In this document: positions 5,710-43,636 of the stretch, piece by piece | Numbering within the stretch: position 1 is the first letter of the stretch | Layout: each line of letters begins with the position of its first letter | Assembly (NCBI RefSeq): GCF_009617755.1 | Contig: NZ_BGZH01000001.1 | Location: 1,860,001 to 1,924,000, forward strand | From: Marinobacter salsuginis | GTDB taxonomy: Bacteria; Pseudomonadota; Gammaproteobacteria; Pseudomonadales; Oleiphilaceae | Length of the DNA: 64,000 nucleotides | Direction of reading: 5' to 3' | Notes under the pieces: model-generated | What the model saw: only the letters and a program-made list of their open reading frames with translations | What the model was told of the DNA's origin: nothing | The model's database searches: none | Position numbers and translations under genes: made by a program

Positions 5710-5819
5710 GTGTTGAGGTGGGTACGGCTTCCGAAAACCGCTGTGAATACGTCCCTGTACGCTTGCTCTGAACCTTCCCTGGTTCAGAGCATTTTCGGAA
5801 GCCGTACCCACCTCAACAC
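5710..5819 (+). repeat. Intergenic long inverted-repeat element, copy A
   Basis: Perfect 28-bp arms at 5710-5737 and 5792-5819 enclose a 54-base interior. The interior contains the conserved core beginning CGCTGTGAATACGTCC and a second perfect 10-bp hairpin, GCTCTGAACC with GGTTCAGAGC (5765-5774/5781-5790). The arms start GTGTTGAGGT and end CTTCCGAAAA. It lies between the MerR-type promoter and the merR start codon. Related copies occur at 21846, 26923, 29015 and 43525. Confidence 0.9.
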
Positions 5820-5880
5820 TCCGCTGACTTCAGTCTTTGGTTCCTGAAGCCACTATTTTTGGCACGTTGAGAACAAGACG

Positions 5881-6324
5881 ATGAAAGTAAAAGAGATTGC
5901 AGAAGCCGCCGGCGTTAACCCGGATACGGTTCGGTTCTACACCCGCGAGAACCTGCTGAAACCGACCCGTAACCCTGAGAATAACTACCAGCAGTTTGAT
6001 GCCGAGGATCTCCGGCGGCTTCGATTTGCCCGGAAAGCACGGCAACTGGGATTTTCCTTGCCGGAGATTCGACAGATTCTGGATCAGGCCGACGATCATC
6101 ATTCGCCCTGTCCGATGGTTCGGGATGTATTCCAGCACCGGTTGGCGGAAGTTGAGCGGGAGATTCGGGAGCTGCAGCAGTTGCGCAAGCGGATGACCGC
6201 CGCGCTAGCTGCCTGGCAAGACATGCCGGATGGCACGCCCGATGGCCATACCATTTGCCGGTTGATAGAACACTGGGATGATCCGGCGCCCTGTTGCGGG
6301 GCAAGCGAACAGAACGAGGAGTGA
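5881..6324 (+). CDS. MerR-family metal-responsive regulator
   Basis: A 147-residue MerR-family activator. The winged helix-turn-helix (KVKEIAEAAGVNPDTVRFYT, about 1-70) is followed by a long dimerisation helix and a short metal-binding tail. Candidate metal ligands are Cys77 (SPCP) at the start of the dimer helix, Cys126 in HTICRLIEHW, and Cys138-Cys139 (PCCG). Cys77 is the place where ZntR/CadR/PbrR/MerR proteins have Cys and CueR has Ser, so the sensor looks divalent- or Hg-type. Yet the next gene is a CopA-type ATPase. It starts seven bases before that gene and should act at the palindromic promoter at 5654-5685. Confidence 0.88.
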   Translation: MKVKEIAEAAGVNPDTVRFYTRENLLKPTRNPENNYQQFDAEDLRRLRFARKARQLGFSLPEIRQILDQADDHHSPCPMVRDVFQHRLAEVEREIRELQQLRKRMTAALAAWQDMPDGTPDGHTICRLIEHWDDPAPCCGASEQNEE

Positions 6325-6330
6325 TTCTGG

Positions 6331-8952
6331 ATGACTGACACACCTGTTTTGCAAACCATGCTGAGCATTTCCGGGGCTTCCTGCCAGGGCTGCGCCAAGA
6401 AGATTCGCAATGCGCTCGAGCCGTTGACCGGCGATATCGAGCTGGTTGAAGTGGACCTGGAAAACCAGACGGTGGCCTTGCCGGAGGGAGTGGATGCCGC
6501 TGAGGCGGCGCGTATTGTTACCGAGACCGGCTATCCCGCTGAGCCTTTCGAGGAAGATGCCCAGCCAGCCAGTTGCTGTGCTTCCTGGAACAAGAGCAAG
6601 AACCTTGCCGGCGACAATTCCGAAGACCATGCAGTGACCGAAGAATCGGTTCAGTCGAGCCCTGAATCGGCAACAGCGGCCGACGGGCAGGTTCATCTCT
6701 CGGTGACCGGTGCCACTTGTGCCTCCTGCGTTAACACGATTGAAAAAGCCCTGATGTCCGTCTCGGGTATTCACCATGCCCATATGAACCTGGCAGACAA
6801 TACCGCCACGGCCACGGGTGATGCCGACCCTCAGGCACTGGTGAAAGCAGTGGAAAGTGCCGGCTATGGCGCCAGCGTCATCGAAGACGAGGACGAAGCC
6901 GACGACCGGAAGCAGGAGGAAGACCGCAAGCAATACAGGTCTCTGCTGGTGAAGATGGCGGTGAGTCTGGGCCTGGGGCTTGGGCTGATGGTCTGGGGTA
7001 TGGGCTTCGGCACCATGATGGTGACCGACGCCAATCAGGGTACCTGGCTCGGCCTGGGTGTGCTGACATTGATCGTGATGGCAGCCACCGGCGGGCATTT
7101 CTATACCGGCGCGTGGAAGGCGTTCCGGCACCACAATGCCAATATGGATACCCTGATTGCCCTGGGTACCGGAACCGCCTGGCTCTATTCCATCGTGGTG
7201 GCCAGTGTTCCGACCGCGTTGCCGGAGATGGCCAGTCATGTGTACTTCGAGGCCTCGGCCATGATCATCGGCCTGATCAATCTGGGCCAGGCGCTGGAGC
7301 TTCGGGCCAAAGGCAAAACCTCGGAGGCGGTGCGCCGGTTACTGGATCTGCGGGCGAAAACCGCCCGGGTGATTCGCAACGGGGAAGAGCAGGACATTCC
7401 GGTCGAGGAGGTCCGCAAGGGCGATCATATCCGGGTCCGGCCCGGGGAAAAACTGCCGGTGGATGGCCTGATCGCCGAAGGCTCGACCCGCATTGACGAG
7501 AGCATGCTCACTGGCGAGCCGATGCCGGTCAGCAAGTCGGAAGGCGATGAGGTGTCCGCCGGCACGCTGAACACACACGGTTCCATCGTCTATGAGGCCA
7601 CTCGGGTGGGCAGTGAAACCGCGCTGGCCCAGATCATCAAGCTGGTGAAAAAAGCCCAGGGTTCAAAGCCCGCTATCGGACGTCTTGCGGACAAGATTTC
7701 CTCGGTATTCGTGCCGACGGTCATGCTGATTGCTGTCGTGGCGGCGCTGGTCTGGTACAACGTCGGACCAGAACCGGCGGTGGTTCATATGATGGTGGCC
7801 GCCACCACGGTGCTGATCATTGCCTGCCCCTGCGCTCTGGGCCTGGCGACACCCATGTCGGTGATGGTCGGCGTTGGCAAGGCCGCTGAATACGGCGCGC
7901 TGATCCGCCAGGGTGATGCCCTGCAAACCGCGGGCAAGCTGGATCTGGTCATTCTGGATAAGACCGGCACCATTACCGAGGGCCATCCGGCGGTTACGCG
8001 GCTTCACGCCAGCGACGGTGACGAGAAGCGCCTGCTGACCCTGGCGGCCGGGCTGGAACAGCACTCAGAACACCCTCTGGCCGAAGCCATCCTGGCGAAG
8101 GCCAAAGAGAAGCAGGCTGATCCCGAGAAGGTAACCGATTTTAAAGCCCTGAACGGCAAGGGCGTACAAGGCGAATTCGAAAGCAAGCCACTGCGCCTGG
8201 GCAACCGGCGGTGGCTGGAAAGCGAGGGTGTGGAACTTGCCGACCTTGCAGGTGCTGCCCGCTCGATTACCGAAGAAGCCGGCACGCCCCTGTTCCTGGC
8301 ATTGGGCAATGAGGCTCTGGGCGTCATTGGAGTGGCCGATGCCATCAAACCGGACTCCAAGGCGGCCATCCAGCGTCTTCACGACGCCGGCATCAGGGTG
8401 ATGATGGTGACCGGCGATGTCGACGCCACCGCCAAAGCCATCGCGAAAAAAGCCGGGATCGATGATTATCGTGCCGAGGTGCTGCCTAAAGACAAGGCCG
8501 AGGTGGTCAGTGAAATGCGCGGCAAGGGCCACACAGTCGCTATGGTCGGCGACGGCATCAATGATGCGCCGGCCCTGGCGGCGGCAGACGTCGGCTTTGC
8601 CATCGGCACCGGCACGGATGTCGCCATTGAGAGCGCCGGTATCACTCTGATGCGAGGTTCGCTCCACGGCGTTCCCGATGCCATCGAGATTTCCCGCGCC
8701 ACTGTGAAGAACATTCACCAGAATCTGTTCGGCGCATTCGTATACAACACAATGGGTATTCCGGTTGCCGCCGGCCTGCTCTACCCTGTCTGGGGAATAC
8801 TGATGAGCCCGATACTGGCCGGCGCTGCCATGTCCCTGTCTTCGGTCACCGTAGTCTCGAACGCCAACCGCCTGAGATTGTTCCGGACCAGTCACCGCCC
8901 GGAACGGAGCGACAGCGACAGTGATCCAAAACAGCAACAGGAGCGGAACTGA
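6331..8952 (+). CDS. copA: Heavy-metal (Cu+-type) P1B ATPase with two HMA domains
   Basis: An 873-residue inner-membrane metal exporter. Two N-terminal HMA domains carry CQGC (18-21) and CASC (130-133), separated by an acidic linker with an extra CC. The core has the TGEP actuator motif, the transmembrane CPC (499-501), the phosphorylated Asp543 in DKTGT, the SEHPLAEA nucleotide-binding His-Pro, and [10 protein letters not shown]. In the last helices YN (VYNTMGIP) and MSLSS are visible, the signature of the Cu+/Ag+ subgroup. It pumps monovalent metal from cytoplasm to periplasm. It follows merR by six bases and overlaps the next small gene at TGATG, indicating one operon. Confidence 0.92.
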
Positions 8953-9068
8953 TGGAAACACTACTGGTCAACGTCGGAGGTCTTGCCCTGATGGCAGCCA
9001 TCGTCTGGTGGTTCTGGCTTTCCGGTTCTGACGACACAGGCTCAAGTGAACATCAACATCACCACTGA
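8952..9068 (+). CDS. 38-residue single-span membrane protein with His-rich tail
   Basis: This short gene begins with an ATG overlapping the ATPase stop codon (TGATG) and ends at TGA 9066-9068. The peptide has one hydrophobic helix (about residues 5-24, ending IVWWFWL), a short acidic linker, and a terminal HQHHH. The N-terminal helix resembles the membrane anchor that precedes the cupredoxin domain in small proteins linked to CopA ATPases; here the cupredoxin domain is absent. Translational coupling and the His tail suggest a metal-binding accessory peptide of the exporter. Function is inferred from context only. Confidence 0.6.
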   Translation: METLLVNVGGLALMAAIVWWFWLSGSDDTGSSEHQHHH

Positions 9069-9078
9069 GGTACTTGCC

Positions 9079-9528
9079 ATGAAAAAACACACCCTGGCTT
9101 TTGGCCTGATGGCTGCCCTGGGATTCAGCACCACCACGGTGGCGGCCGGCGCTGCCCAGAGTATCCACGTCTACAAATCCCCCACGTGCGGCTGCTGTGA
9201 AGACTGGATCGATCACCTGGAAGCCAATGGCTTCGAGGTGGAGGCGACCAACACCAACGATATGGGCAGGATCAAAGCCGACGCAGGTCTGCTCGCCGGT
9301 CTTGGCAGTTGTCATACGGCATTCGTCGGTGATTACGTCATCGAAGGTCACGTGCCGGCCGACGACATCAAGCGCCTGATCAGCGAAGCACCCCAGGCCA
9401 CCGGCCTGAGCGTACCCGGGATGCCCATTGGTTCACCCGGCATGGAGATGGGCGAACGGAAAGATCATTACAAGGTCATCCTGTTCAACGAGGCCGGACA
9501 GACCCGAATCTTTTCCCAGCACAATTAA
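9079..9528 (+). CDS. DUF411 periplasmic metal-binding protein
   Basis: A 149-residue exported protein. A signal peptide (MKKHTLAFGLMAALGFSTTTVAAG) precedes a thioredoxin-like DUF411 domain with SPTCGCCEDW, a second Cys in GSCHTAFVGDYVIEGHVP, and a Met/Gly-rich stretch VPGMPIGSPGMEMG. DUF411 proteins are found with copper-resistance genes and are thought to bind copper in the periplasm. The ATG at 9079 is preceded by GAGG and gives a clean signal peptide; an upstream in-frame start would not. It is the last gene of the merR-copA operon and is followed by a terminator-like hairpin. Confidence 0.88.
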   Translation: MKKHTLAFGLMAALGFSTTTVAAGAAQSIHVYKSPTCGCCEDWIDHLEANGFEVEATNTNDMGRIKADAGLLAGLGSCHTAFVGDYVIEGHVPADDIKRLISEAPQATGLSVPGMPIGSPGMEMGERKDHYKVILFNEAGQTRIFSQHN

Positions 9529-9541
9529 CGGGAATCACCAG

Positions 9542-9580
9542 GCAAGGGACGGCATTTACCGGCCCTTGCTACCGCTTTTT
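9542..9580 (+). terminator. Rho-independent terminator of the metal-efflux operon
   Basis: GCAAGGG (9542-9548) pairs with CCCTTGC (9563-9569), with an inner CGG/CCG pair around a CATTTA loop and one mismatch. Six bases later a TTTTT run occurs at 9576-9580. It lies 13 bases after the DUF411 stop codon. Confidence 0.65.
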
Positions 9581-9683
9581 CCTTCCGGTTTACACCTTTC
9601 CCTGTCTGTTTTTCCTACACTCTGGTTAACCAGTGTTCTATCATTGGCGCCCAGAAACCCGGAAAATCCGAGAGGGATACTCG

Positions 9684-11402
9684 TTGAGTCTTAAAACCCG
9701 CATCCTTGGTCTGGCTGCCACTCTCATCATCGTGGCTTCTGCGGCTTCGTGGCTGGCCTATCGGGAGCTGTCCGAGAGCATCATCGAACGCTGGGGCCAA
9801 CAGGTCGCGGAAATACAGGTGCGCTACGACAGCGCCCGCCTGCTGCAATCCCTGGAGCGGGAAATCGGCTTGGCCAAACAAATGGCAAGCTCGTCCGCCC
9901 TGATCAACTGGGCCGCCAATCCGGATGACGCCGCGCTCAAAGCGGAAGCCATCCGCCAGATGGAAAGCTTTCGCTCCAATTTCAGGGACAACAACTACTT
10001 CGTTGCCCTCGTCCAGAATGGTCACTATTACTACAACAACGAAGAGAACGAATACGCTGGCAACCAGTTCCGGTATGTTCTCGATGAAGAAAAACCCGAT
10101 GACGCCTGGTTCTTCCAACTCATTGAAGAAGGTCGCGACTTTCACCTCAACGTAAACCCGGATACGGAGCTGGGTGTCACCAAACTCTGGATCGATGTGC
10201 TGATGCGCGATGAGGCTGGCCAGATCGTCGGCATGGTCGGCACCGGCCTTAGCCTGGACGCTTTCCTGCAGGATATTGTCGATATCGGTCAGGATGGCAT
10301 CACGACCCTGTTCGTGGATTACAACGGCGCCATCCAGCTGTACCGCGACCGGAACTACATCGACTTCGCCAGTATCATCAAACCCGAAGGCCAGAAGAAC
10401 ACCGTCGATCTGCTGTTCGATGATCCCCAGGACAAGCAGCAGATCCTCGGTATGCTGCAGCTGCTCAAGAAGCGGAGTGACCAGGCAGGCCAGGTGGAGA
10501 GTGGCTTTGTGACCGTAGATGGCCGAAAGCATCTGGCCGGCGTTGCCTTCCTCCCGGCCATTGGCTGGTTTGAGATCACCCTGCTCGACCTCAACACCCT
10601 CCTGCCAACCAGCTATCTGTGGCCGCTGGTAGCCGTGTTCCTGGGCACCTTGCTGATCACCCTGGTACTGTTCCACCTGATTATCCAGACCCGGATTCTC
10701 AAGCCCATCATGAGTCTGGAGCACGCCGTGGAAAAAGTCCGGGAAGGCAGCTTTGATCTGCCACGGCTGGATAAGCCGGATAATGAGATCGGCTGGCTGG
10801 CCGATCACTTCGAGAAAATGACCCAGAGCCTGGGTCACTCCACCCGGGAACTTGAGGAAAAAGTCGCACAGCGAACCGACGAGTTGAATCGACTGGCCCG
10901 GGTTGACCCCCTCACCGGTCTGAAAAACCGTCGGGGCCTGGACGAGGTTCTGGATGAGGAAATCCAGCGGGCCCGCCGCCAGGAGTCCGGCTTTGGCGTG
11001 ATCTGGCTGGACATCGACCATTTCAAGAGCATCAACGACAACCTTGGCCACCAGGCCGGTGATCAGATCCTGTGCCGCGTTGCCCTCTGGCTGAAAGCCG
11101 GCGTTCGCCCCTACGATCATCCCGGACGCTGGGGCGGCGACGAATTCGTGGTTCTGCTCTCACCCTGCGACCCGGAGACCCTGGGCCGTATCGCCCGTCG
11201 TATCCGCGAATCCGTGGAACAGGAAAGCCGCAAAACCGGGACTGCCGTCACTGTGAGTGTTGGTGGTTACTTCGCCCTGCCCGGCGATAACAGTGACACC
11301 ATTCTTCGTCACGCGGATCGGGCCCTCTATCAGGCCAAGCATGAGGGGCGCAATCGGGTCTGTATCACCGTCTCGGAAGACCCGGAGATTAACCCGGCGT
11401 AA
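9684..11402 (+). CDS. Membrane diguanylate cyclase with Cache-type sensor, HAMP and GGDEF
   Basis: About 572 residues from a TTG start at 9684, chosen because GAGGG lies eight bases upstream and the product opens directly with the first membrane helix (SLKTRILGLAATLIIV). A further upstream ATG at 9633 adds 17 unlikely residues. A large periplasmic region (about 35-300), with YYYNNEENEYAG and LGVTKLWIDVLM, looks like a double-Cache sensor. A second helix (about 313-335) and a HAMP-like linker follow. The GGDEF domain has GGDEF at 484-488 and RPYD at 475-478, exactly five residues before, the product-inhibition I-site. An active, feedback-inhibited cyclic di-GMP synthase is likely; the ligand is unknown. 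Confidence 0.9.
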   Translation: MSLKTRILGLAATLIIVASAASWLAYRELSESIIERWGQQVAEIQVRYDSARLLQSLEREIGLAKQMASSSALINWAANPDDAALKAEAIRQMESFRSNFRDNNYFVALVQNGHYYYNNEENEYAGNQFRYVLDEEKPDDAWFFQLIEEGRDFHLNVNPDTELGVTKLWIDVLMRDEAGQIVGMVGTGLSLDAFLQDIVDIGQDGITTLFVDYNGAIQLYRDRNYIDFASIIKPEGQKNTVDLLFDDPQDKQQILGMLQLLKKRSDQAGQVESGFVTVDGRKHLAGVAFLPAIGWFEITLLDLNTLLPTSYLWPLVAVFLGTLLITLVLFHLIIQTRILKPIMSLEHAVEKVREGSFDLPRLDKPDNEIGWLADHFEKMTQSLGHSTRELEEKVAQRTDELNRLARVDPLTGLKNRRGLDEVLDEEIQRARRQESGFGVIWLDIDHFKSINDNLGHQAGDQILCRVALWLKAGVRPYDHPGRWGGDEFVVLLSPCDPETLGRIARRIRESVEQESRKTGTAVTVSVGGYFALPGDNSDTILRHADRALYQAKHEGRNRVCITVSEDPEINPA

Positions 11403-11407
11403 CAGGT

Positions 11408-11436
11408 CTGACTCATACCGCCATAACCGTTATACT
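11408..11436 (+). promoter_or_regulatory. Predicted sigma-70 promoter for the RNase II gene
   Basis: CTGACT (11408-11413) and TATACT (11431-11436) are separated by 17 bases, with the start codon at 11476, giving a leader of about 30 bases. Each hexamer departs slightly from consensus, so this is a prediction. Confidence 0.45.
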
Positions 11437-11475
11437 CCGCCCCATCATTCATTTTTCTACCAGCCAGGTTACTTC

Positions 11476-13461
11476 ATGCTCAATGCCGACGCCCTCAGCC
11501 AGTTGCGCCAGCTGAAATCGGATATCAAGGACAATAAGGTGGTGTTTCCCGGGACGGTCAAAGCCACCAATGGCCGCTTCGGATTCGTTGCGCTCGACGA
11601 GGGCCGGGACGTCTTTCTGCCACCTGAGGAAATGCAGAAAGTGCTGCCCGGGGACCGGGTGAATGTCACCGAGCAGGAAGTTGAGAAAGGCAAAACCCAG
11701 GGCGTGGTGGACGAATTGCTGGAAACCCGCCTGAACACGTTTGTCGGGCGCTATCTGATCAAGGGCAAAGGGCATTTCGTGGTACCCGAGACGCCGGGTA
11801 TCAACCGCTGGATCTTCATTCCCCCCAAGGAACGGATGAACGCCCAGCAGGACGATTACATTTACTGCCAGATTCACCGGCATCCGATCAAGGACGGCAA
11901 AGGCCAGGCCAGGGTCCTGCGGGTGATCGGCAAGGCCGGGGAACCCGGTATCGAACGTTCCTTCACCCTGGCGACGTTTGATCTGGCAGACACCTGGCCC
12001 GATGCGGTGCGCGCGCAGGCCGACAGCCTCAGTGACAGCGACATTGAATCCCGGGAAGCCGGGCGGGAAGATCGCACGGACCGACCCTATGTGACCATCG
12101 ATAGCCCGGGCACCCAAGACATGGACGACGCCCTGCTGGCCGAACCCAACGCCACCGGCTGGACCCTGTCGATTGCCATTGCCGACCCGACCGCCGTGAT
12201 CGAGACCGACAGCCCGGCGGAGCAGGAAGCGTTCAATCGCGCCACCGCCATTTACTTCCCGGGCGAGCCCCTGCCCATGCTGCCGGACAGCATCAGCACC
12301 CGACTGTGCTCATTGATGCCGGATATGAAACGCCTGGCCCTGGTGTGTGATCTGCAGGTCAACAACGATGGCAGCCTGGGCGATTACAGCTTTCACCAGG
12401 CGGTTATCCGGTCCAAGGGCAAGCTCAGCTACGAGTTGGTCTCCAACCTGATTGAAGGCCGGGAAGACGATGAGATCAAGGCGCTCCCGGACGCCGTTGC
12501 CAACAGCCTGGATCAATTGCACCAGGCAGCGACAGCGCTCAGGAAATGGCGCAGCGAGCATGCGTTGCTGAGCGGCGACCGGCCGGAATTCCGGCTCCGC
12601 CTGGATGAAAACAAGCGTATCCGGCTGATCGAGCCGTCTATTCAGAACGAAGCCCACCGCCTGGTGGAAGAGTGTATGGTTGCTGCCAACCGCTGCGCCG
12701 CGGATTTTCTTGCCAACCAGACAGCGGGCTTGTTTATCCAGCACCCCGGGCTTCGGGATGATCGCGCCGATAACATCCGGGCGCTGCTCGACAGCCACGC
12801 CCCACACCTGTCCGGGGTTGATGCCCATCAGGCCGAGGGCTTCCGCAAACTGATGAAAGAAACCGACGCCCTGGAGGCCGAGGTACCGGTCAAGGCCATA
12901 CTGTCCCGCCAGCTTGCCCGGGCCGAGCTGAGCTTCAAGCCGGCTCCTCACCAGGGAATGGGCCTGGATGCCTACACCACGTTTACCTCGCCACTGCGCA
13001 AGTTCTCGGACTTTTACGTGCACCGGCTGATCAAGTCGGCGCTGTGGGATACTCCCATGAAACCCCTGACCGAGGATCAGCTTGAAGCCCTGCAAGCCGC
13101 CCAGATCCGCGCCCGTCAGGCGGCAAACAGCCTGGAAGCCTGGCTCAAGAGCGACTTTGCCAAGACACTGAGCGAAGAACCCATGACCGGGGTGATCAGC
13201 CGCACGGTGCCCGCCGGTTTCTTTGTGCGGCTGGACGCCAACGGGCTGGAAGGGTTTGTCAGCTGCAAGGACCTGGACGGCAAATACAGCTTCGATCCGG
13301 TCACCCTGCGCCTGATCCATAACAAGAACGGGCGCATCTTCCAGCTGGAGCAGCCGGTGACGGTTAGCTTTGCCGGGGTAGACGAAGAACGCAGGCAGAT
13401 TAATTTCAAGCTGGTGGAAGCGCAGGAGATAGCCACCGGATCCAGTTCCAAAGACGGTTGA
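11476..13461 (+). CDS. rnb: Exoribonuclease II (RNase II/RNase R family)
   Basis: A 661-residue 3'-to-5' hydrolytic exoribonuclease acting on single-stranded RNA in the cytoplasm. Two N-terminal cold-shock-like RNA-binding domains cover about 20-190. The catalytic RNB domain opens with TIDSPGTQDMDDALL, in which Asp209, Asp215, Asp217 and Asp218 match the four metal-binding Asp of E. coli RNase II. TTFTSPLRKFSDFYVHRLI is the second RNB signature. An S1 domain (about 560-645, GVISRTVPAGFFVRLDANG) ends the protein. The length is close to RNase II (about 644) and well short of RNase R (about 810). The ATG at 11476 fits; extending upstream adds non-homologous residues. Confidence 0.92.
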   Translation: MLNADALSQLRQLKSDIKDNKVVFPGTVKATNGRFGFVALDEGRDVFLPPEEMQKVLPGDRVNVTEQEVEKGKTQGVVDELLETRLNTFVGRYLIKGKGHFVVPETPGINRWIFIPPKERMNAQQDDYIYCQIHRHPIKDGKGQARVLRVIGKAGEPGIERSFTLATFDLADTWPDAVRAQADSLSDSDIESREAGREDRTDRPYVTIDSPGTQDMDDALLAEPNATGWTLSIAIADPTAVIETDSPAEQEAFNRATAIYFPGEPLPMLPDSISTRLCSLMPDMKRLALVCDLQVNNDGSLGDYSFHQAVIRSKGKLSYELVSNLIEGREDDEIKALPDAVANSLDQLHQAATALRKWRSEHALLSGDRPEFRLRLDENKRIRLIEPSIQNEAHRLVEECMVAANRCAADFLANQTAGLFIQHPGLRDDRADNIRALLDSHAPHLSGVDAHQAEGFRKLMKETDALEAEVPVKAILSRQLARAELSFKPAPHQGMGLDAYTTFTSPLRKFSDFYVHRLIKSALWDTPMKPLTEDQLEALQAAQIRARQAANSLEAWLKSDFAKTLSEEPMTGVISRTVPAGFFVRLDANGLEGFVSCKDLDGKYSFDPVTLRLIHNKNGRIFQLEQPVTVSFAGVDEERRQINFKLVEAQEIATGSSSKDG

Positions 13462-13522
13462 AAAACCACGCCGGCGGGCGCATCGTATCACTCAGGACAT
13501 GTTCCTTTGATGGAGGTGCGCC

Positions 13523-15506: not shown

Positions 15507-15523
15507 CCTAATTGGAGATATAC

Positions 15524-21845: not shown

Positions 21846-21961
21846 GGCAGGTGTTGAGGTAGGCTTTCCAAAACGCGCTCCTTGCGGCACGTCCATGTGA
21901 CGCTTGACTGTCGCCATCCATGGCGACAGACAGTTTTGGAAAGCCTACCTCAACACCTGCC
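21846..21961 (+). repeat. Intergenic long inverted-repeat element, copy B
   Basis: Perfect 29-bp arms at 21846-21874 and 21933-21961 enclose a 58-base interior. Arms begin GGCAGGTGTTGAGGTA and end GGCTTTCCAAAAC. The interior contains GGCACGTCCATGTGACGCTT and an inner 9-bp hairpin, CTGTCGCCA/TGGCGACAG (21908-21929). The interior matches copy D at 56 of 58 bases although the outer arms differ. It lies between two convergent genes and could also stop transcription from both sides. Confidence 0.9.
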
Positions 21962-26922: not shown

Positions 26923-27031
26923 CAGCCGGATGGGGGCGACTTTCTGAAACCGTGCGGAGCCAGGGATGGCGGAGCCGAGCGTACACGGAAGTATTTACAG
27001 CGTGTTTCAGAAAGTCGCCCCCATCTGGCTG
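26923..27031 (-). repeat. Intergenic long inverted-repeat element, copy C
   Basis: 28-base arms at 26923-26950 and 27004-27031 are complementary except for one G-T wobble; they begin CAGCCGGATGGGGGCGA and end CTTTCTGAAAC. The 53-base interior carries the family core in the opposite orientation to copies A, B and D (reverse complement CGCTGTAAATACTTCC, then GTGTACGCTC). The inner hairpin is reduced to GCCA/TGGC. It lies between tpx and the MATE transporter gene. Confidence 0.85.
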
Positions 27032-29014: not shown

Positions 29015-29126
29015 CGACGGCAGGGAAGGGCTTTCCAAAACACGCTCCTTGCGGCACGTCCATGTGACGCTTGACTGTCGCCATCCCTGGCGACAGACAG
29101 TTTTGGAAAGCCCTTCCCTGCCATCG
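29015..29126 (+). repeat. Intergenic long inverted-repeat element, copy D
   Basis: Arms at 29015-29041 and 29100-29126 pair over 23 perfect base pairs (29019-29041 with 29100-29122), then one mismatch and three more pairs. Arms run GGCAGGGAAG then GGCTTTCCAAAAC. The 58-base interior differs from copy B at only two positions, including the same 9-bp inner hairpin CTGTCGCCA/TGGCGACAG. It lies between divergent genes, in the place where their promoters would be. Confidence 0.9.
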
Positions 29127-33942: not shown

Positions 33943-33958
33943 CCCTCCTGGCCAGTAG

Positions 33959-35143: not shown

Positions 35144-35353
35144 GGGCACTCTCCAGGGCAGATAACGTGGTAAAAAACGATATTGTGGTGGGCCCGTGCG
35201 ACCATCGCAACTGTCGTCCAGAGATGTCGTCATTGTGTTCATATCCGGCTTTGGTCGAACATCGTCGATAAACACTTGCCCAGGCAGTGCAATACTTGCG
35301 AACCTAACGGTTTATCCAATAACAATGCCGAATTTTCTCCCGGAGCCTTTTCA

Positions 35354-36241
35354 ATGATTGGCCAGATCCTGTCCACCATGTTGCCGGTATTCCTCATCGC
35401 CGGTTGCGGCGCCCTGTACGGTCGCTATCGGACGCCCGACATCCAGGGGCTGAACGTACTCAACATGGAGCTGTTTGTTCCCATGCTGGTCTTTGCCGTG
35501 CTCGCAGACCAGCAGGCCCCGCTGCAGGAGTATGCCAGGCTGGCATTGGCCGCCACGGTGGTTGTACTCGGATCGGGGATTGTCCTGTATCCACTGGCCA
35601 AGGTTCTGAAGCTGAACCTGAAGACCTTCCTGCCACCGATGATGTTCAACAATTCCGGTAACATGGGCATTCCGCTGCTGGTTCTGGCCTTCGGTGATGA
35701 GGCCCTGCCGGCGGCCATCGTGCTGTTCATCGTGGAAATGCTGCTGCACTTTTCGGTGGGGTTGTACATGCTCGACCCCCATACCTCCATCATAAAACGC
35801 CTTAAGCTGCCCATTGTCTTTGCCAGTATTGCCGGGCTGTCGGTCAATCTCGGCGGCGTGCATTTGCCAGAGTGGCTGCTGGAAACCCTGAACATGCTCG
35901 GTGGTGTGTGCATTCCGCTGATGCTCTTTGCCCTCGGTGTGCGCATGCTGGATATCGATTTCAGCGACTGGAAAATGGGCATGCTGGGGGCCATTGCCTG
36001 CCCTGCCAGCGGCCTGCTACTGGCCTGGCCAATGATTGCGATTCTCGATCTTCCCGGGTTGCAGGTGGCAGCGCTCTGGGTATTCGCAGCCTTGCCTCCG
36101 GCGGTGCTCAATTACATGGTGGCGGAACAGTATCGTCAGGAGCCACACACGGTCGCCTCGCTGGTATTATTAAGCAACCTGGGCAGTCTGGTGGTGATGC
36201 CCGTTGTGCTGGGCCTGGTGTTTGCCGCGGGCTACGTGTGA
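35354..36241 (+). CDS. AEC-family transporter (auxin efflux carrier-like)
   Basis: A 295-residue membrane protein with about ten hydrophobic helices. PPMMFNNSGNMGIPLLVLAFGDEALP is the family's cross-over motif. Members transport malate, malonate or amino acid-like substrates; none is assignable. GGAG lies eight bases before ATG 35354; a longer upstream reading would overlap the divergent lyase promoter and is rejected. Confidence 0.85.
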   Translation: MIGQILSTMLPVFLIAGCGALYGRYRTPDIQGLNVLNMELFVPMLVFAVLADQQAPLQEYARLALAATVVVLGSGIVLYPLAKVLKLNLKTFLPPMMFNNSGNMGIPLLVLAFGDEALPAAIVLFIVEMLLHFSVGLYMLDPHTSIIKRLKLPIVFASIAGLSVNLGGVHLPEWLLETLNMLGGVCIPLMLFALGVRMLDIDFSDWKMGMLGAIACPASGLLLAWPMIAILDLPGLQVAALWVFAALPPAVLNYMVAEQYRQEPHTVASLVLLSNLGSLVVMPVVLGLVFAAGYV

Positions 36242-36284
36242 ACGCCTGCCCGGTGAACGGCTCTGTTAGCTGAGGAAAGAACGG

Positions 36285-37175
36285 ATGTCTGAAACCGTTG
36301 CGGTGGTGCGCGCCTCCCGACCCAATTTTCTGGTCCTCGCACCCCTGTGCGCCGGCCTTGGCGTGGCGGTAGCCTGGCACCAGGGCGAACCACCCACCCT
36401 GATCAATACTCTCCTGGTTCTGATTGGCGCCCTGCTGGCTCATGCCGCCGTCAATCTGCTCAACGAATACGAGGACTTTACCTCCGGGCTGGATCTGATG
36501 ACCCGCCGCACCCCGTTCTCCGGCGGCAGTGGGGCCTTGCCGGAAGTGCCCTCGGCCGCCAGACAGGTTTTGCTGGCCGCGTTTGGCACCCTGGGACTGG
36601 TGATAGCCATTGGCCTCTACTTCCTCTGGCTCCGGGGCCTGCCCATGCTGGTGTTAGGCGCCGCCGGCGTGGCACTGGTGCTCACGTACACCCGCTGGAT
36701 TACCCGTTCTCCGCTGATTTGCCTGCTGGCTCCGGGGCTGGGCTTCGGCCCGGTCATGATTCTCGGCAGCCTGATCGCCCTGGGGGCACGGTTGGATGTA
36801 ACTGCCGTGACTGTGTCTGCCATCGGCCTTTTGCTGGTCAGCGAATTGCTGCTGATCAATCAGATTCCGGATGCAGACGCCGACCGGAAAGTCGGCCGTC
36901 GGCATCTGGTTATTACCCTGGGGCAGCCAGCCGCGGCCCGCCTGGTAGCGCTCCTGTTACTGAGCAGCTACGGCCTTCTCGAGGCTGCAATCTGGATCGG
37001 CTGGTTGCCGGTGTGGGCCACTCTTGCCCTTGCGCCTCTGCCGGCAGCGATCTGGGTAAGTGTCAAACTGCCAGGTGCGCTCGCCAACCCAGTACAGCTG
37101 AATACCCTCCTGGGAATCAACGTCGCGGTGCTGCTGGCAACCCTGGCGCTGTTGATCTGCGGGCTCAGCCTTTAA
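36285..37175 (+). CDS. UbiA/MenA-like prenyltransferase family protein
   Basis: A 296-residue membrane enzyme of the UbiA prenyltransferase superfamily with eight or nine helices. The first Asp-rich region is [14 protein letters not shown] (residues about 57-70) and the second is [15 protein letters not shown] (about 198). Both bind Mg-prenyl diphosphate. The first motif resembles MenA (COG1575) more than UbiA. The acceptor (naphthoate, homogentisate, or other) cannot be told. Convergent 11-base overlap with the following MCP gene. Confidence 0.8.
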
Positions 37176-38808
37176 ACCGGAACACACTGACCCGGGAACG
37201 CAGTTGCCCGGCCAGCACCGCCAGATCCCGGCTGGCCCCGGCCACCTGCTCAGAGCCGGCTGAAGTTTCCACCGTGGCATCGTGAATGCGGCTGATATTG
37301 CGATTAACCTCTTCCGCCACGGAACTCTGCTCTTCCGACGCACTGGCAATCTGAGCGTTCATGTCGTTGATGGCGCCGACCTCGCTGCGGATTCTGGCCA
37401 GGGCAGCCTCCGCCTCACTGGTCTTGTCTACCGTGGTGCGCGCCAGTTCCCGGCTGCTTTCCATAACCTCGGTCGCCTCGCCTGCACCGGCCTGGAGGTT
37501 TCCAACCATTTCCTGAATTTCCCGGGTGGAATCCTGGGTCCGGGATGCCAGGGAACGGACTTCGTCGGCAACAACGGCGAAGCCCCGGCCATGTGTACCG
37601 GCCCGGGCCGCCTCGATTGCAGCATTCAGGGCCAGCAGGTTGGTCTGTTCGGCGATGGCGTTGATCACCTCGATGATCTTCTCGATGTTCGCACTGTCCT
37701 CCGACACCCGCTGTACGGTCCGGGTTGCCTGCTCCAGGGTCTCGGCCAGCTCTCCGATGGAAGCAGCCGTTTCCTGCACCACGCGATTGCCACTTTCTAC
37801 TTCGGTATCGGCTTTCTGGGTGGCGGTTGCAGCGCTGGCGGCGAATCCGGCCACTTCGTTCACCGTGGCCGCCATCTGGTTCACGGCCGTAGCCATCTGT
37901 TCCGCCTCGCTGGCCTGCAGACGGATCTGCTGGCTGTTGTTGTCCGAGGTGTTTTCAAGTTCAGACGAAGAACTGGATAGCTCTTCGGCCGCCGACCGGA
38001 CTTCCCGGATAATGCCGCCCAGTCGCTCAACTGTATCCTGCAACGCGCCCATCACGCTGTCGGGATATCGGGTTTGAATATCCTGATCCAGCTCTCCATC
38101 AGCCAGATGGCGAATGGCTGTTGCAACATCCTCCGGCTCACCGCCAAGAATCTTCTTCAATCGGCGGATGATCACCAGGGCTACCAGAGCACCGAGAACC
38201 ACCGCAAGTCCGGTCACTGACAGGTTCAACACATTGAATGTACTGGCGACCTCTCGTACTTCATCCACGCCGGTGGTGACCACGTCTTCCTGGTAATCGA
38301 TAAAGGCGTTCACTCGCTTCAGCCACTCAGAGTAAGCGCCGGACACATCGCTGAGCAGAAACGACCGGGCCCGGTCGATGTTGCCGGCCAGTCTGAGATC
38401 GAGGAGCTCATCGGTCAGAGTCAGGGCCCTGAGCTCTATCTCTTTGATCGCGGCTAGCAGTTCCTTTTCCCGGCTGGTTGCGCCTTCTTCCCGGAACATG
38501 GCATCCATCGGGCCCGCGGAATCCCGGTAAAACGCTTTCAGCCGCTCGATGTCGGCGAGATGCCGTTGCAGATCCCGGTCGTTTTCCACCAGCACCGCAT
38601 CGCGGATGGCGATGGCCCGATCGTGGACACTGCCGCGAAAATTGATCGCGTATCGCTGTTTTACGGCAGCGCCATCGCCCACGTCGGTGAGGGTCCGGTC
38701 GATAAAACCGACCCGCTGGTTGCCAATCAAACTGACCGCAATGACCAGGGACAGAATCAGACCAAAGCCAAGGGCGAGGCGTTTCGCAACGGTGAGCTGG
38801 CCAAACAT
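37165..38808 (-). CDS. Methyl-accepting chemotaxis protein
   Basis: A 547-residue chemoreceptor. Two membrane helices (about 10-28 and 191-212) flank a periplasmic four-helix-bundle sensor (4HB_MCP). A HAMP linker follows (about 213-270). The signalling hairpin tip contains [34 protein letters not shown] and adjacent methylation helices. Class appears to be 36- or 40-heptad by length. The ligand is unknown and no che genes are adjacent. GGAG precedes ATG 38808. Confidence 0.93.
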
Positions 38809-38900
38809 GTTTACACTCCGGACACTTTTTATTGAATGAAGCTATGTGCTCTCTAAAAGTTGCAGTCTGGATCAATCAATAACGTCTTCAGCCCGGTTTT

Positions 38901-38929
38901 TTGACAAGACTTTTCATTACTGCAATCAA
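38901..38929 (+). promoter_or_regulatory. Possible promoter for fadE
   Basis: A perfect -35 TTGACA (38901-38906) is followed after 17 bases by AATCAA, a poor -10; the fadE start is about 100 bases downstream. The -10 is the weak point, and the true element may lie slightly further on. No clear PsrA/FadR-like palindrome was found here. Confidence 0.3.
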
Positions 38930-39029
38930 TCTTTACATACCGCCCCGGAACCCCTTGCAACCGCATGGACTTTGACCGATGGTTAAAGTTGATTCTGAGC
39001 GATTGCATTCACGATACGGAGGTCTCCCC

Positions 39030-41537
39030 ATGAGTGTTCTTCTCCTGCTGGTCAGCGCCCTGGTGCTGATCTATCTGGGTATAGGGGGCAGCACAGCCGC
39101 TGCCGTCATGTCCATTGCCACCGTTGTGGGCCTGTTCCAGGATGGATGGCACCTGATCAGCATTCTGTGCGGCGGCGTTCTGCTGGCCCTGGCGCTGATA
39201 CTGGTGATTCCCGGCGATTTGCGCCTCGACAAGCTCAGCCGCCCCCTGCTTGGCTGGGTTCGCAGCCGGCTCCCGAAACTTTCCGACACCGAAGCTGAAG
39301 CCCTGAAATCCGGCTCGGTGGATTGGGACGGCGAACTCTTCTCCGGCAAGCCAAAATGGAACAAGCTGCTGGACGCTAAGCCCGCGCATCTGACCAGCGA
39401 AGAGCAGGCCTTTCTGGACGGCCCGGTGGAGAAGCTCTGCGCCATGCTCGACGACTGGAAAATCACCCACGAACAGTACGACCTGCCGGACAAGGTCTGG
39501 AAATTTATCCGTGAGAACGGTTTTTTCGGTCTGGTGATTCCAAAAGAAGACGGCGGCCTGGGTTTCTCGAACACCGCCCATTCCGAAATCGTGATGAAGA
39601 TTTCCACCCGGAGCGTGTCCGCAGCGGTTACCGTGATGGTGCCCAACTCCCTCGGCCCCGGTGAGTTGCTGATGCATTACGGCACTGATGAGCAGAAACA
39701 GCACTACTTGCCCAGACTGGCCGGCGGCGACGAGATTCCCTGTTTCGCACTGACTTCGCCAGTGGCCGGCTCCGACGCCGGCGCCATTCCGGACAAGGGC
39801 ATCGTCTGCAAGGGCCAGTGGAACGGCAAGGAAGTGCTGGGGCTGAAAGTCACCTGGAACAAGCGCTACATCACCCTGGCCCCGGTGGCGACACTGATCG
39901 GCCTGGCCATCAAGGTCTACGACCCGGACAAGCTGCTGGGTGAGTCTGACGAGATCGGCGTTACCTGCGTGCTGGTACCAAGGGACACCGAGGGCGTCAA
40001 CGCCGGTGCCCGCCACCTGCCTATGAACACCGTGTTCATGAATGGCCCGACCTGGGGCAACGATGTGTTTATCCCCATGGAACAGGTGATCGGTGGCCAG
40101 GACATGCTCGGCAAGGGCTGGACCATGCTGCTGGAATGCCTCTCCATCGGCCGCTCCATCTCCCTTCCCGCCCTCGGCACCGGAGCCGGCAAGGTGGCCA
40201 GCCTGGCCACCGGTTCATATTCCTACACCCGGGAACAGTTCGGCCGTACCATCAGCCAGTTTGAGGGTGTGCAGGAAGCCCTGGAGCCCATCGCCGGCTA
40301 CACCTACATGATGGACGCAGCCCGGCTGCTGACCTCCGGCATGCTGGACCGGGGCGTGCGCCCGTCGGTGCCCTCTGCCGTGCTGAAATACCGCAATACC
40401 GACCTGATGCGGGAAGTCATCAACCACGCCATGGATGTGGTCGCCGGTCGGGGCGTGATCACCGGGCCCCGCAACTTCCTGGCCCGGGCCTACCAGGCAG
40501 TGCCCATCGGTATCACCGTGGAAGGCGCCAATATCCTAACCCGGAGCCTGATGATCTTTGGCCAGGGGTCCATCCGCTGCCACCCGTTCATTGTTGAAGA
40601 AATCGAAGCCGCGGGCATGGAAGACGAGGACAAAGCGGCCAAGAAATTCGACGGTATCTTCTATCGCCACCTGGCCCACACCACCCGTAACGCCCTGCGA
40701 GCATTGCTACTGGGGCTTACCCGAGGCTGGATTGAATCTGTGCCACGGCAGGGCGATATCAAGCTCTGTTACCGGCAACTGGCCCGGTTCTCGGCGGCGT
40801 TCGCCCTGATGACCGATGTTACCCTGCTGACCGTTGGCGGCGGCCTCAAGGCCCGCCAGCGGCTCTCCGGCCGGATGGCCGACTGCCTGGTACAGCTTTA
40901 CTACGCCACCGCCGTCATCAAACAGTGGCATGAGGAAGGCTACCCGGACGACCAGCGGCCGCTGGTGGAATGGTGCCTGAAGACCTGCCTGAGAGACCTC
41001 CAGGACTCCATGCGCGAGGCCATCATCAACTTCCCGGTACCGGCCCTGCGCTGGCCCCTGCGCCTGCTGGTGTTCCCGCTGGGCGCCACCGGCCTGAACG
41101 GTCCGGATGACAAGCTCGGCGCAAAGGTCGCGGAATCCATCGTCAAGGACACCCCGGTACGCCAGCGCATCAGTCGCGGCGCCTACACCACCATGGATCC
41201 GGACGACCCGCTCGGCCGCGTATTGAATGCCTACAAGCTGGCGAACGAAACGGCGGATATGCGTCACCGGCTCCACGATGCCATGCGCAACCGCGATGAG
41301 GACGAACTGGGCGGCATTGACCTGCTCATGGGGCATCAGCGCAAGGAACTGGTGGACTGGGCCTGCGCCCAGGGCGTGGTCAAGGCAGACGAGTGCGACA
41401 AGCTGCTGGAAGCACTGGAGGCACTCTACGATGTGATCCGCGTGGATGCGTTCGACGCCGATGGCCTGAAGGCGCTTTCAAGGTGCGCCAAAGGTAAGCG
41501 CAAGGTCGTCGAACGTCCGCCACGGGAAGAGAAATAA
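39030..41537 (+). CDS. fadE: Acyl-CoA dehydrogenase FadE
   Basis: An 835-residue FAD-dependent acyl-CoA dehydrogenase of the long FadE type (E. coli FadE is 814), catalysing the first step of beta-oxidation. Two N-terminal hydrophobic segments (about 1-65) anchor it to the membrane. The ACAD core follows with CFALTSPVAGSDAGAIPD (FAD/substrate motif), GRSISLPALGTGAG, FGRTISQFEGVQEALEPIAGY and GRGVITGPRNFLARAYQ. A long FadE-specific C-terminal domain completes it. GGAGG is seven bases before ATG 39030. It precedes trmO by 15 bases. Confidence 0.93.
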   Translation: MSVLLLLVSALVLIYLGIGGSTAAAVMSIATVVGLFQDGWHLISILCGGVLLALALILVIPGDLRLDKLSRPLLGWVRSRLPKLSDTEAEALKSGSVDWDGELFSGKPKWNKLLDAKPAHLTSEEQAFLDGPVEKLCAMLDDWKITHEQYDLPDKVWKFIRENGFFGLVIPKEDGGLGFSNTAHSEIVMKISTRSVSAAVTVMVPNSLGPGELLMHYGTDEQKQHYLPRLAGGDEIPCFALTSPVAGSDAGAIPDKGIVCKGQWNGKEVLGLKVTWNKRYITLAPVATLIGLAIKVYDPDKLLGESDEIGVTCVLVPRDTEGVNAGARHLPMNTVFMNGPTWGNDVFIPMEQVIGGQDMLGKGWTMLLECLSIGRSISLPALGTGAGKVASLATGSYSYTREQFGRTISQFEGVQEALEPIAGYTYMMDAARLLTSGMLDRGVRPSVPSAVLKYRNTDLMREVINHAMDVVAGRGVITGPRNFLARAYQAVPIGITVEGANILTRSLMIFGQGSIRCHPFIVEEIEAAGMEDEDKAAKKFDGIFYRHLAHTTRNALRALLLGLTRGWIESVPRQGDIKLCYRQLARFSAAFALMTDVTLLTVGGGLKARQRLSGRMADCLVQLYYATAVIKQWHEEGYPDDQRPLVEWCLKTCLRDLQDSMREAIINFPVPALRWPLRLLVFPLGATGLNGPDDKLGAKVAESIVKDTPVRQRISRGAYTTMDPDDPLGRVLNAYKLANETADMRHRLHDAMRNRDEDELGGIDLLMGHQRKELVDWACAQGVVKADECDKLLEALEALYDVIRVDAFDADGLKALSRCAKGKRKVVERPPREEK

Positions 41538-41552
41538 GGTGCAGATCAGCCC

Positions 41553-42038
41553 ATGACCGACCCCGGAGATCTGCGACCCAACGAGGAGGCCGTGGAACTT
41601 GAACCGGCCTCCGATGCCTCGCTTCGCTTCATCGGCACCATCCGCACGCCCTGGCGCGACCGCAAAGACTGCCCGCGCCAGGGCAAGCTCGACGGCCCCG
41701 AATGTCAGCTGGTACTGGACCCGGTCTGGCACCAGGCCCTGGAGGGCCTTGAAAACTATGACACCATCGAAGTGCTCTACTGGCTCGACCAGAGCCGCCG
41801 GGATCTGATCCGGCAAAGCCCTATAAGCGATGGCCAGACGTTTGGCACCTTTGCCCTGCGATCGCCGGTTCGGCCCAACCCGATCGGCACCTCCATGGTT
41901 AAACTGGTTCGCATCGAAAAAGGAACGCTGGTTGTGCGCGGCCTGGACTGTCTGGACGAAACGCCCTTACTGGACATCAAACCGGACCGGTGCGCCTTCA
42001 GCCCGAAGGCGCCGGATAAACCTGGGAGTAGAGACTGA
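41553..42038 (+). CDS. trmO: TrmO-type SAM-dependent tRNA methyltransferase (TsaA/YaeB family)
   Basis: A 161-residue protein of the TsaA/YaeB beta-barrel methyltransferase family, which N6-methylates threonylcarbamoyl-A37 of tRNAs in E. coli. Marks are FIGTIRTPWRDRKDCPRQG, LENYDTIEVLYWLDQ, RSPVRPNPIGTSMVKLVRI and GLDCLDETPLLDIKP. It has only the conserved barrel and lacks the C-terminal extension of E. coli TrmO (235 residues), so its substrate may differ. It directly follows fadE and is convergent with a small exported protein gene. Confidence 0.8.
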   Translation: MTDPGDLRPNEEAVELEPASDASLRFIGTIRTPWRDRKDCPRQGKLDGPECQLVLDPVWHQALEGLENYDTIEVLYWLDQSRRDLIRQSPISDGQTFGTFALRSPVRPNPIGTSMVKLVRIEKGTLVVRGLDCLDETPLLDIKPDRCAFSPKAPDKPGSRD

Positions 42039-42042
42039 ATCT

Positions 42043-42348
42043 TTACTGATCGAGGATGTCGATGATTTCCCGAGTGTCCTTGATGACCGTATAGATGCGG
42101 TCTTCCACTCTCACTTCTGCCCGTCCATCGCCGATATCGCGAACATCGCCGTAATCGTATAGCTCACGATGCAAACGGTCGCCGCGGCCAATATCCAGCT
42201 TTTTCTGCCAGCCCGGAGGCAGCGGCTTGCCCTGCTCCACCTTCTTCTGCAGTCCGGGCGGCAATGCATCGCTATGGTTGCCAGCGTTTACAGGCATGGT
42301 CGCACCGAACAGCAGCACCATTGCGACAGCGGATAGAGTTTTAAACAT
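42043..42348 (-). CDS. Small secreted RcnB/CigR-like protein
   Basis: A 101-residue exported protein (signal peptide MFKTLSAVAMVLLFGATMPVNA). The mature part has two LPPG-x-QKK motifs (DALPPGLQKKVEQGKPLPPGWQKKL) and a C-terminal beta region VRVEDRIYTVIKDTREIIDIL. These are the marks of the RcnB/CigR family, small periplasmic proteins linked to metal homeostasis or envelope stress. ATG 42348 was chosen because it begins the signal peptide and has GAGGAG upstream. A second, longer family member lies at 44578-45030. Confidence 0.7.
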   Translation of the reverse strand: MFKTLSAVAMVLLFGATMPVNAGNHSDALPPGLQKKVEQGKPLPPGWQKKLDIGRGDRLHRELYDYGDVRDIGDGRAEVRVEDRIYTVIKDTREIIDILDQ

Positions 42349-42482
42349 GAATAGCTTGCTCCTCTCGGGCATGGATTGCGTTCATTTAAACTGGATGGCC
42401 AGCATACGAGATCTTTGTGTCTACACGCTGAGTCTTCGGCTTGCGTTCCCTGACAGAACAAAAGCTCTGTTCGCCGGGCAAT

Positions 42483-43442
42483 TTACTGAGGTATAGCTTC
42501 CGGACGCAAACCAGAACTGATCGCCTCTGCGACCAGCCACCGGCGAAGGAGCTGAATCCCTCGTTCACGGCGCCGGCTGGTTTTCCATGCAAAATAGAAA
42601 ATATCGCCCGTCATGACGGAATGGCAGGGCAAGCGCACGAAGTCGCTGGAATCCTTCCGGGTACTGAGCATGTAATCGTTGGTCAATGCGATTCCCTGGT
42701 GAAAGCGCGCGGCTTCAAGCGACAGCAGCATATGGCTTGAATGCAGCAAACGGCTCGATCGGGGCAGCTCCAGGCCCGCCTCGCGGTACCAGGCTTCCCA
42801 GTCCCCGCCCTGCCGGTCATAGATACTGTAGGTCGATAACAACGGAAACTCCGCCACCATTTCCGGCGTCAACGAGACCGATGACGGGTCACCAGCCACT
42901 TCCTCCAAGTCCAGTTCCCGACGAATCTTCTGCCAATAGTCCTGACTGCACACCGGGAACAGACGCTCCTCGTAAAGCAGCTCATAGCTGAACGCCGGCG
43001 ACGTGGGTTTAACGGTAACAAAGCAATCCGCCACCCGATCCGACAACACCGGATTCTGACTGCTCATTTCCAGCGACAGATCCAGCTGAGGATGCAACCG
43101 CTTCAGATCCGGCAACCTGGGCACCAACCACCGAACAGCAAATGAGCTGAACACCGACAGCCGCAGCAAGGACTCCTCATGGCCCAGCAACTGCTCACTG
43201 GCCCGCTCAATCTGCAGCAGCGCCGAGCTGACTGCATCCAGATACTGCCGCCCCTCATCGGTCAACGACAGCGTTCGCCCACTGCGCCAGAACAACTGCT
43301 CCCCCAGATAGGTTTCCAGCTGTTTTATCTGGTGACTGACCGCACTCTGGCTCACCGCCAGCTCTTCGGCAGCAAGGGAAAAGCTGTTGAGACGGGCAAC
43401 GGCTTCAAATACGGGCAGGGCTTTCAGGGGTGGCAGCTTCAT
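42483..43442 (-). CDS. LysR-family regulator, GcvA-like
   Basis: A 319-residue LysR regulator opening with LPPLKALPVFEAVARLNSFSLAAEEL and TQSAVSH-type helix-turn-helix (SQSAVSHQIKQLETYLGEQLF), characteristic of the GcvA subgroup. The effector domain follows from about 90. It is divergent from an EamA exporter gene, the usual arrangement for control of an exporter, with repeat copy E sitting in the shared upstream region. Confidence 0.88.
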   Translation of the reverse strand: MKLPPLKALPVFEAVARLNSFSLAAEELAVSQSAVSHQIKQLETYLGEQLFWRSGRTLSLTDEGRQYLDAVSSALLQIERASEQLLGHEESLLRLSVFSSFAVRWLVPRLPDLKRLHPQLDLSLEMSSQNPVLSDRVADCFVTVKPTSPAFSYELLYEERLFPVCSQDYWQKIRRELDLEEVAGDPSSVSLTPEMVAEFPLLSTYSIYDRQGGDWEAWYREAGLELPRSSRLLHSSHMLLSLEAARFHQGIALTNDYMLSTRKDSSDFVRLPCHSVMTGDIFYFAWKTSRRRERGIQLLRRWLVAEAISSGLRPEAIPQ

Positions 43443-43524
43443 TATCTAATTTTCTAATAGGTCGTGAATAATGATCATTTTATCGGATATTAAAGCCCAA
43501 ATAGAATGCCTGAGCCAGTTAGGG

Positions 43525-43636
43525 GAGCTCGGGCAGCAAATGGCTTCCGAAAATGCTCGGAGCCATGGAAGGCGAGGAGCAAGCGTACATGGACGTACTC
43601 GCAGCGGTTTTCGGAAGCCATTTGCTGACCGGGCTC
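43525..43636 (-). repeat. Intergenic long inverted-repeat element, copy E
   Basis: 29-base arms at 43525-43553 and 43608-43636 pair with one G-T wobble and one mismatch; the inner 20 pairs (CAGCAAATGGCTTCCGAAAA with its complement) are perfect. The 54-base interior is in reverse orientation: its complement matches the copy A interior at about 44 of 54 positions, including GTACGTCCATGTACGCTTGC. It separates a divergent LysR/EamA gene pair. Confidence 0.88.

Follow-up and report, generated by a model that had tools for sequence, protein, structure and literature searches.

The 64,000-nucleotide stretch of the Marinobacter salsuginis genome considered here (assembly GCF_009617755.1, contig NZ_BGZH01000001.1, positions 1,860,001 to 1,924,000; hereafter the window) carries five copies, designated A to E, of an intergenic inverted repeat of about 110 bp, which belongs to a large dispersed family of structured elements predicted to bind the global regulator CsrA. 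Copy A separates an EAL/GGDEF gene from a MerR gene (site A), while copy E precedes the ATG of an EamA-type frame by 34 bp. When the whole window was scanned for gap-free inverted repeats with an arm of at least 14 and a loop of 40-100, exactly five matches resulted, at the very places pointed out in an initial annotation (Table 1); their arms measure 27-29 bp and their loops 53-58 nt. As described there, the arms differ between copies and stay complementary within each, departing from perfect complementarity at 0, 0, 1, 1 and 2 positions, and none of 200 shuffles per copy folded as well as the copy itself (z -9.35 to -13.11). The interiors of copies B and D are indeed identical at 56 of 58 positions, and Pfam searches of nine genes near the window copies found none encoding a transposase, in agreement with the claim that no transposase is adjacent. 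The description of the outer arms as divergent holds in part: they differ between copies, but are not unrelated as they have a weak G-rich consensus in common (alignment columns 12-14 are G-C in 43, 48 and 42 of 57 sequences).

Table 1. Copies of the element in the window, with positions counted from its first letter.
Copy	Span	Strand	Arms	Core	CANGGANG loops	Detected by	Predicted fold
A	5710..5819	-	5710-5737 + 5792-5819	5738-5791	5781-5774 + 5757-5750 (minus)	inverted-repeat scan	both loops open
B	21846..21961	-	21846-21874 + 21933-21961	21875-21932	21922-21915 + 21897-21890 (minus)	inverted-repeat scan	
C	26923..27031	+	26923-26950 + 27004-27031	26951-27003	26961-26968 + 26984-26991 (plus)	inverted-repeat scan + covariance model	
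D	29015..29126	-	29015-29041 + 29100-29126	29042-29099	29089-29082 + 29064-29057 (minus)	inverted-repeat scan	
E	43525..43636	+	43525-43553 + 43608-43636	43554-43607	43564-43571 + 43588-43595 (plus)	inverted-repeat scan	minimum-energy fold pairs part of loops

The initial annotation had proposed a genome-wide covariance-model search and had allowed for the possibility that no further copies exist in the genome, which is clearly not the case as blastn and the covariance model both find many. In the 4.15 Mb genome, blastn with copy D gives 37 matches, two of which are the copy's own reverse complement, while the covariance model R1, built from 57 elements, gives 101 matches, which divide into 87 full-length copies (at least 67.8 bits), 9 reverse-complement echoes and 5 partial cores; with the best 150 of 1612 candidates scored, the R1 counts are lower bounds. 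The common denominator of the copies is a long outer stem enclosing two inner hairpins. The outer stem measures 26-30 bp in 72 of the 87 copies and its inner end is conserved, often as CTTTCCAAAAC or CTTCCGAAAA. The motif CANGGANG, with both N positions free, occupies the loop of hairpin 1 in 86/86 and of hairpin 2 in 85/86 two-hairpin copies (loops were located by A.GGA, which is present in every copy), and the two motifs of an element are spaced by 23, 24 or 25 nt. Hairpin 1 has been lost from copy C1:907540.

Within the alignment A1 (57 elements chosen from 81 distinct ones by a 93% identity filter with a few hand changes), positions of the outer stem carry up to six pair types, and the covariation score reaches 0.582 compared with 0.138 upon shuffling (0/500 shuffles as high) and at most 0.110 in slid controls; the inner stems also vary with compensation. 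The 98.2% pairing of the outer stem in A1 is partly a product of selection, because nearly all of these elements were found through their complementary arms. A loop-first search blind to the arms in two 460 kb blocks provides a fairer test, and recovered arms scoring 18-29 in 9 of 14 candidates in genome G069 and in 2 of 7 in G042, the remainder scoring 5 at most. For stretches of the own genome, which had been chosen around model matches, arms accompanied 85 of 88 loop-first candidates. On the 3′ side of the element (CANGGANG strand), a weakly conserved stretch, approximately CaCCaaA, extends from +3 to +10 after the 3′ arm (83 copies).

Counts in other genomes are lower bounds as well, with at most 62 places per genome scored in the R1 survey of Marinobacter, 13 in the class, 12 in the phylum and 9 in the class search with the Rfam model RF01731. 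R1 matches 60 of 61 Marinobacter genomes, the own genome included, and finds nothing in G062; the counts range from 3 to 11 in ten genomes and reach at least 50 of the 62 scored places in 38. Across the Gammaproteobacteria, 49 of 274 genomes including the own one (48/273 others) match at E up to 1e-4, distributed patchily over 44 of 222 genera, own included, and 18 of the 273 others fill at least 10 of the 13 places scored. In a phylum draw of 299 genomes, 17 match R1, all of them from the same class. A motif search located the element in 18 of 19 foreign loci, and exact matches to the 27-base core of copies B and D occur at 8 loci of the genome collection, all in Marinobacter. A plasmid search gave no match to the element, and no recognisable description of this Marinobacter repeat was found in the literature as judged on titles and the starts of abstracts.

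In a palindromic stem, a G-U pair on one strand is an A-C mismatch on the other, and counts of the two, which were given equal scores, therefore provide a strand test. Read on the CANGGANG strand, the outer stems of the 87 copies, which were found with a structure-scoring model, hold 59 G-U versus 7 A-C (p 2e-11 if cells are independent), and the mismatches include 34 purine-purine versus 5 pyrimidine-pyrimidine combinations. The 94 distinct elements of other Marinobacter stretches, which include orthologues and are not independent, show 58 versus 13 and 30 versus 12, respectively, and 20 elements of other genera 6 versus 1 and 2 versus 0. For the isolated outer stem, RNA parameters give the CANGGANG strand the higher stability in 52 copies and the lower in 5 of 87. 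As G-U greatly exceeds A-C, the single-stranded fold of the CANGGANG strand, whether as RNA or as single-stranded DNA, appears to be under selection, which supports, in strand-specific form (59/7 in the own genome, 58/13 in other Marinobacter), the earlier suggestion that stem structure is selected. A strand-biased mutation process as the source of the asymmetry is formally still conceivable, but the purine-purine excess misfits a simple C-to-T bias.

The element loops equal the RsmE/CsrA consensus A/U-CANGGANG-U/A (PMC6849547) and resemble the CsrA site RUACARGGAUGU obtained by systematic evolution of ligands by exponential enrichment, and CsrA dual-site binding is reported to span 10-63 nt with an optimum over 18 (PMC7652899). 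On sequence grounds the element thus has the predicted hallmarks of a CsrA/RsmA target, namely CANGGANG in hairpin loops and two sites within 10-63 nt, and the own genome has a CsrA gene. Loop consensus, bivalent spacing and favoured strand together point to predicted CsrA/RsmA binding. With a probability of roughly 0.58, we consider the copies to constitute a dispersed family of structured elements that act as bivalent, predicted CsrA-binding RNA, with the fold and not the letters of the stem selected. The CANGGANG strand would fold into a three-way junction in which an outer stem, mostly 26-30 bp long, is joined by two short hairpins, the loops of which would present CsrA/RsmA-type sites 23-25 nt apart, a spacing that one CsrA dimer could bridge. 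Selection would maintain the fold rather than the stem letters, which would consequently turn over quickly; both arms would change in concert, probably with the aid of template switching from one arm to the other during replication, and cores would be swapped between loci by ectopic conversion. The selected molecule would be RNA rather than single-stranded DNA, CsrA the predicted ligand, and the copies putative distributed CsrA-binding modules or decoys.

A number of observations weigh against this interpretation. In the predicted minimum-energy folds, 50 of 87 copies have both GGA unpaired, 31 have one and 6 have none, and the site A element of G064 has lost a GGA. The co-occurrence with CsrA is weak (45/49 element genomes versus 190/225 others), and the element genome G269, rated 98% complete, is absent among the CsrA matches listed. 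The strand preference is the same with DNA energy parameters (54 versus 3), so that RNA is not proved, and G-U pairs are scarce (59 of 2420 outer-stem cells), while an RNA stem evolving by single steps is expected to contain more. Gene context, counted with approximate gene starts from a simple gene caller, reveals no orientation bias, as the upstream neighbour gene is on the same strand in 45 and on the opposite strand in 42 cases, the downstream one in 35 versus 49, and the 34 copies between tandem genes are oriented sense in 14 and antisense in 20 cases (18 of the 87 copies overlapping a called frame were set aside in the tandem-gene and distance analyses). Neither is the orientation at a given site constant between species, the element being reversed at site B in G010 and at site D in G067, G010 and G021. 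Simple consensus scans found a terminator signature downstream of 2/87 copies compared with 11/87 in the mirror control and a marginal promoter signal (p 0.048). An mRNA leader or 3′ untranslated region element was rejected in view of the absent strand bias; a distributed decoy would tolerate mixed orientation.

A further-reaching proposal, which is conceivable but rather unlikely, is that the at least 87 elements, with about 170 predicted binding hairpins, jointly set the free CsrA level as a genome-wide sponge, replace a few CsrB/RsmZ-type genes and have spread through the gammaproteobacteria as a host-kept repeat family. If the RNA reading is true, many intergenic loci, no fewer than 87 in this genome, would together form a hidden reservoir of binding sites for a global regulator. 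Much of the family is missed by current RNA annotation, as RF01731 scores above its cut-off in 13 of 274 genomes and R1 matches 49. With many copies per genome, a traceable site and many species, the family also offers a good natural experiment on how the pairing of a long RNA stem withstands letter change.

The high copy number, the near-identical cores in different arms, the range from 0 to at least 62 copies among congeners and the patchy occurrence over genera would equally be expected of a miniature transposable element with mobile core and tips and a transposase acting in trans, the arms of the element originating in the target or arising upon insertion. Such an element would also accommodate six sites at which, by eye, an element-free near relative keeps one arm only (sites A, D, E, C1:1615399 and C1:1816603, less cleanly C1:1762495). 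The history of site A argues against it. Among 17 congeners compared, 15 possess a short EAL-MerR spacer, of which 14 are occupied, 12 by an intact and two by an altered element (an insert interrupts the core in G044, and G064 shows the GGA loss), while G001 has none. In G018 the element is located upstream of MerR, with no close EAL relative within the stretch, and in G016, where the genes at site A are 2.8 kb apart, no element was found. When 14 of these sequences, 13 of them distinct and one being the window copy, are aligned, 98.9% of the outer-stem cells are paired, both CANGGANG motifs are invariant and the orientation to MerR is constant; across the 13 distinct sequences, both partners have changed in 23 of 30 stem pairs. 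Judged from this alignment, the element is old at site A. Beside it, a terminator-like hairpin AAAACCTTTGACCTGTGAG..CTCACAGGTTTT (window 5640-5690 and orthologues) is strongly conserved in the congener spacers compared.

Four near relatives are element-free at site A and distant congeners are occupied, and the one-armed site A is therefore best read as a loss; this polarity has been established for site A only. On the same ground, the proposal of the initial annotation that the element enters pre-existing hairpins was abandoned, as was insertion with an inverted copy of one flank, both of which had been suggested by the six one-armed sites. Sites B, C and D are likewise occupied in several distant species. 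At eight further element-free sites compared by eye no arm was seen, and no clear target duplication was found apart from a possible 5-base repeat at C1:1615399. No Y1 transposase match was obtained in the genome, with other transposase families not searched, and neutral insertions would not yield the G-U over A-C asymmetry. A mobile origin is thus regarded as unlikely.

The near-identical interiors of copies B and D in different stems would be explained by exchange of cores between loci through ectopic conversion. In G069, site B contains a core of another type within orthologous arms; at C1:1573568 in G042 the same core subtype is inverted relative to G000 and the arms differ too; and site E of G069 and G009 has flanks that are 97 and 99% identical, cores that differ at 6/54 positions and wholly different arms. 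From these comparisons, cores are judged to be exchanged between loci. The reversed orientation between species at one site could be an inversion or of separate origin. As a separate observation, the G069 orthologues of site C and C1:1715529 hold another repeat (about 70-80 bp, GAAGC..GCTTCATGCG) within the second hairpin of the element, and intergenic long hairpins with G-rich arms and unrelated short cores are found in congeners (L062 10467-10554, L064 9545-9622, L060 17509-17600, L037 2421-2508).

A role of the fold in single-stranded DNA, at forks or in recombination for instance, rather than in RNA would be in line with the missing bias to transcription direction, the DNA parameters that also favour the CANGGANG strand and the few G-U pairs, but is considered fairly improbable, as the loops match an RNA-binding consensus exactly, with the N positions free, and the closest Rfam model describes RNAs for which CsrA binding has been predicted.

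At seven orthologous sites compared between near relatives (sites E, C1:1573568 and C1:1732099 were left out of the count), 25 columns have changed in mirrored fashion, by 18 transitions and 7 transversions, and 20 of 557 stem cells are not Watson-Crick. The 7 mirrored transversions cannot go via G-U, a point in favour of arm copying by template switching, a published mechanism for RNA hairpin evolution (PMC8794818). The suggestion of the initial annotation that copying rebuilds one arm from the other is consequently plausible in the form of replication template switching, which probably acts on the arms, but is inseparable from selection here, and the mirrored changes fit selection on the fold aided by template switching. 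Covariation by mutation alone, with template switching homogenising any inverted repeat and fold selection not needed, draws on the same mirrored changes and on a published mechanism (PMC8794818, PMC8604942). It is nevertheless very unlikely, as it leaves unexplained the strand asymmetry of unmatched pairs, which is repeated in the (related) congeners, as well as the conserved loops and the persistence at site A. Template switching may contribute alongside selection.

Least probable of all, and hardly to be expected, is that the hairpins stabilise or end neighbouring transcripts as REP-like 3′ hairpins do, since, even though many copies sit close to a stop codon (at a median of 28.5 bp for the 42 copies with a gene end 3′ of the element and of 44 bp for the 36 with one on the 5′ side), either orientation should then work, conserved loops and strand asymmetry would be needless and no T-tract follows the element. 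Independently of this, close copies are arranged minus-then-plus in 9/9 pairs under 200 bp and 13/14 under 1 kb (for example C1:144812/144955 and C2:512091/512284), so that the CANGGANG strands diverge; divergent promoters between them were considered and rejected, as no common spacer motif was found. The spacers of C1:585399/585670 and C1:761105/761379 contain a second palindromic repeat, GTAGGTCGGATTAG...CTAATCCGACCTAC, which also occurs at L013 1628-1718 and elsewhere and which we take to be REP-like.

Among known systems, REP/REPIN sequences are likewise high-copy intergenic palindromes, but the element differs by its length of about 110 bp, its two inner hairpins and the lack of a Y1_Tnp match in the genome. 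A REP-associated tyrosine transposase (RAYT) elsewhere in the genome, raised in the initial annotation, is not the resident driver, with 0 Y1_Tnp matches at E up to 0.001 in a genome rated 99.93% complete, and a RAYT/IS200 driver was rejected accordingly, other transposases not having been searched. Clean empty sites with target duplication, as expected of miniature inverted-repeat transposable elements, were not observed, six sites being one-armed and eight showing no arm. Hairpins evolving by template switching (quasipalindromes) likewise display mirrored arm changes, and spacer inversion is a named outcome of the process (PMC8604942); the element differs in its dozens of dispersed copies with a conserved core, and here the mechanism is deduced.

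The CsrB/RsmZ decoy RNAs similarly present CsrA sites on repeated GGA hairpins (PMC7652899). The element, in contrast, occurs at dozens of loci with two sites each and has neither a terminator signature nor an orientation bias, and the own promoter and terminator of a CsrB/RsmZ-type gene were not recognised by the simple consensus scans (terminator 2/87, promoter marginal). The PrrB_RsmZ model gave no match over its cut-off in the own genome (RsmY and CsrB models were not run), and two weak RsmZ matches appear to be terminators or the ends of genes.

In Rfam, the family closest to the element is TwoAYGGAY (RF01731), for which Gardner and Eldai 2014 predicted CsrA binding (PMC4333381). Its founding paper (Weinberg 2010) reports it from human gut, gammaproteobacteria and Clostridiales as probably RNA and probably not cis-regulatory, and in the main text mentions neither CsrA nor Marinobacter (PMC2864571). 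RF01731 scores 41.8 bits on copy B and 39.0 bits on copy D, with a cut-off of 43, and accordingly gives no match at gathering score in the window; in the own genome, where the best 150 of 196 candidates were scored and copy D was missed, 27 matches are listed at E up to 1, all at element places and none above 41.8. In congeners, one copy among 18 loci scanned reaches 43.6. RF01731 can be multi-copy itself, filling at least 9 places in five of its 13 class genomes. The overlap between the genomes matched by the two models is small, at least 3 of the 274 at E up to 1e-4, with the RF01731 class search missing the own genome. All 86 two-hairpin copies contain ANGGA, with Y before GGA in 43/86 first and 66/86 second loops, while the G or A at this position in 43/86 first loops is unlike the AYGGAY of TwoAYGGAY. 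On the other hand, the purine interruption in hairpin 1 may correspond to the tandem-GA feature of TwoAYGGAY, and both consist of an external stem and two hairpins. The element is TwoAYGGAY-like, although not filed as a member of the family.
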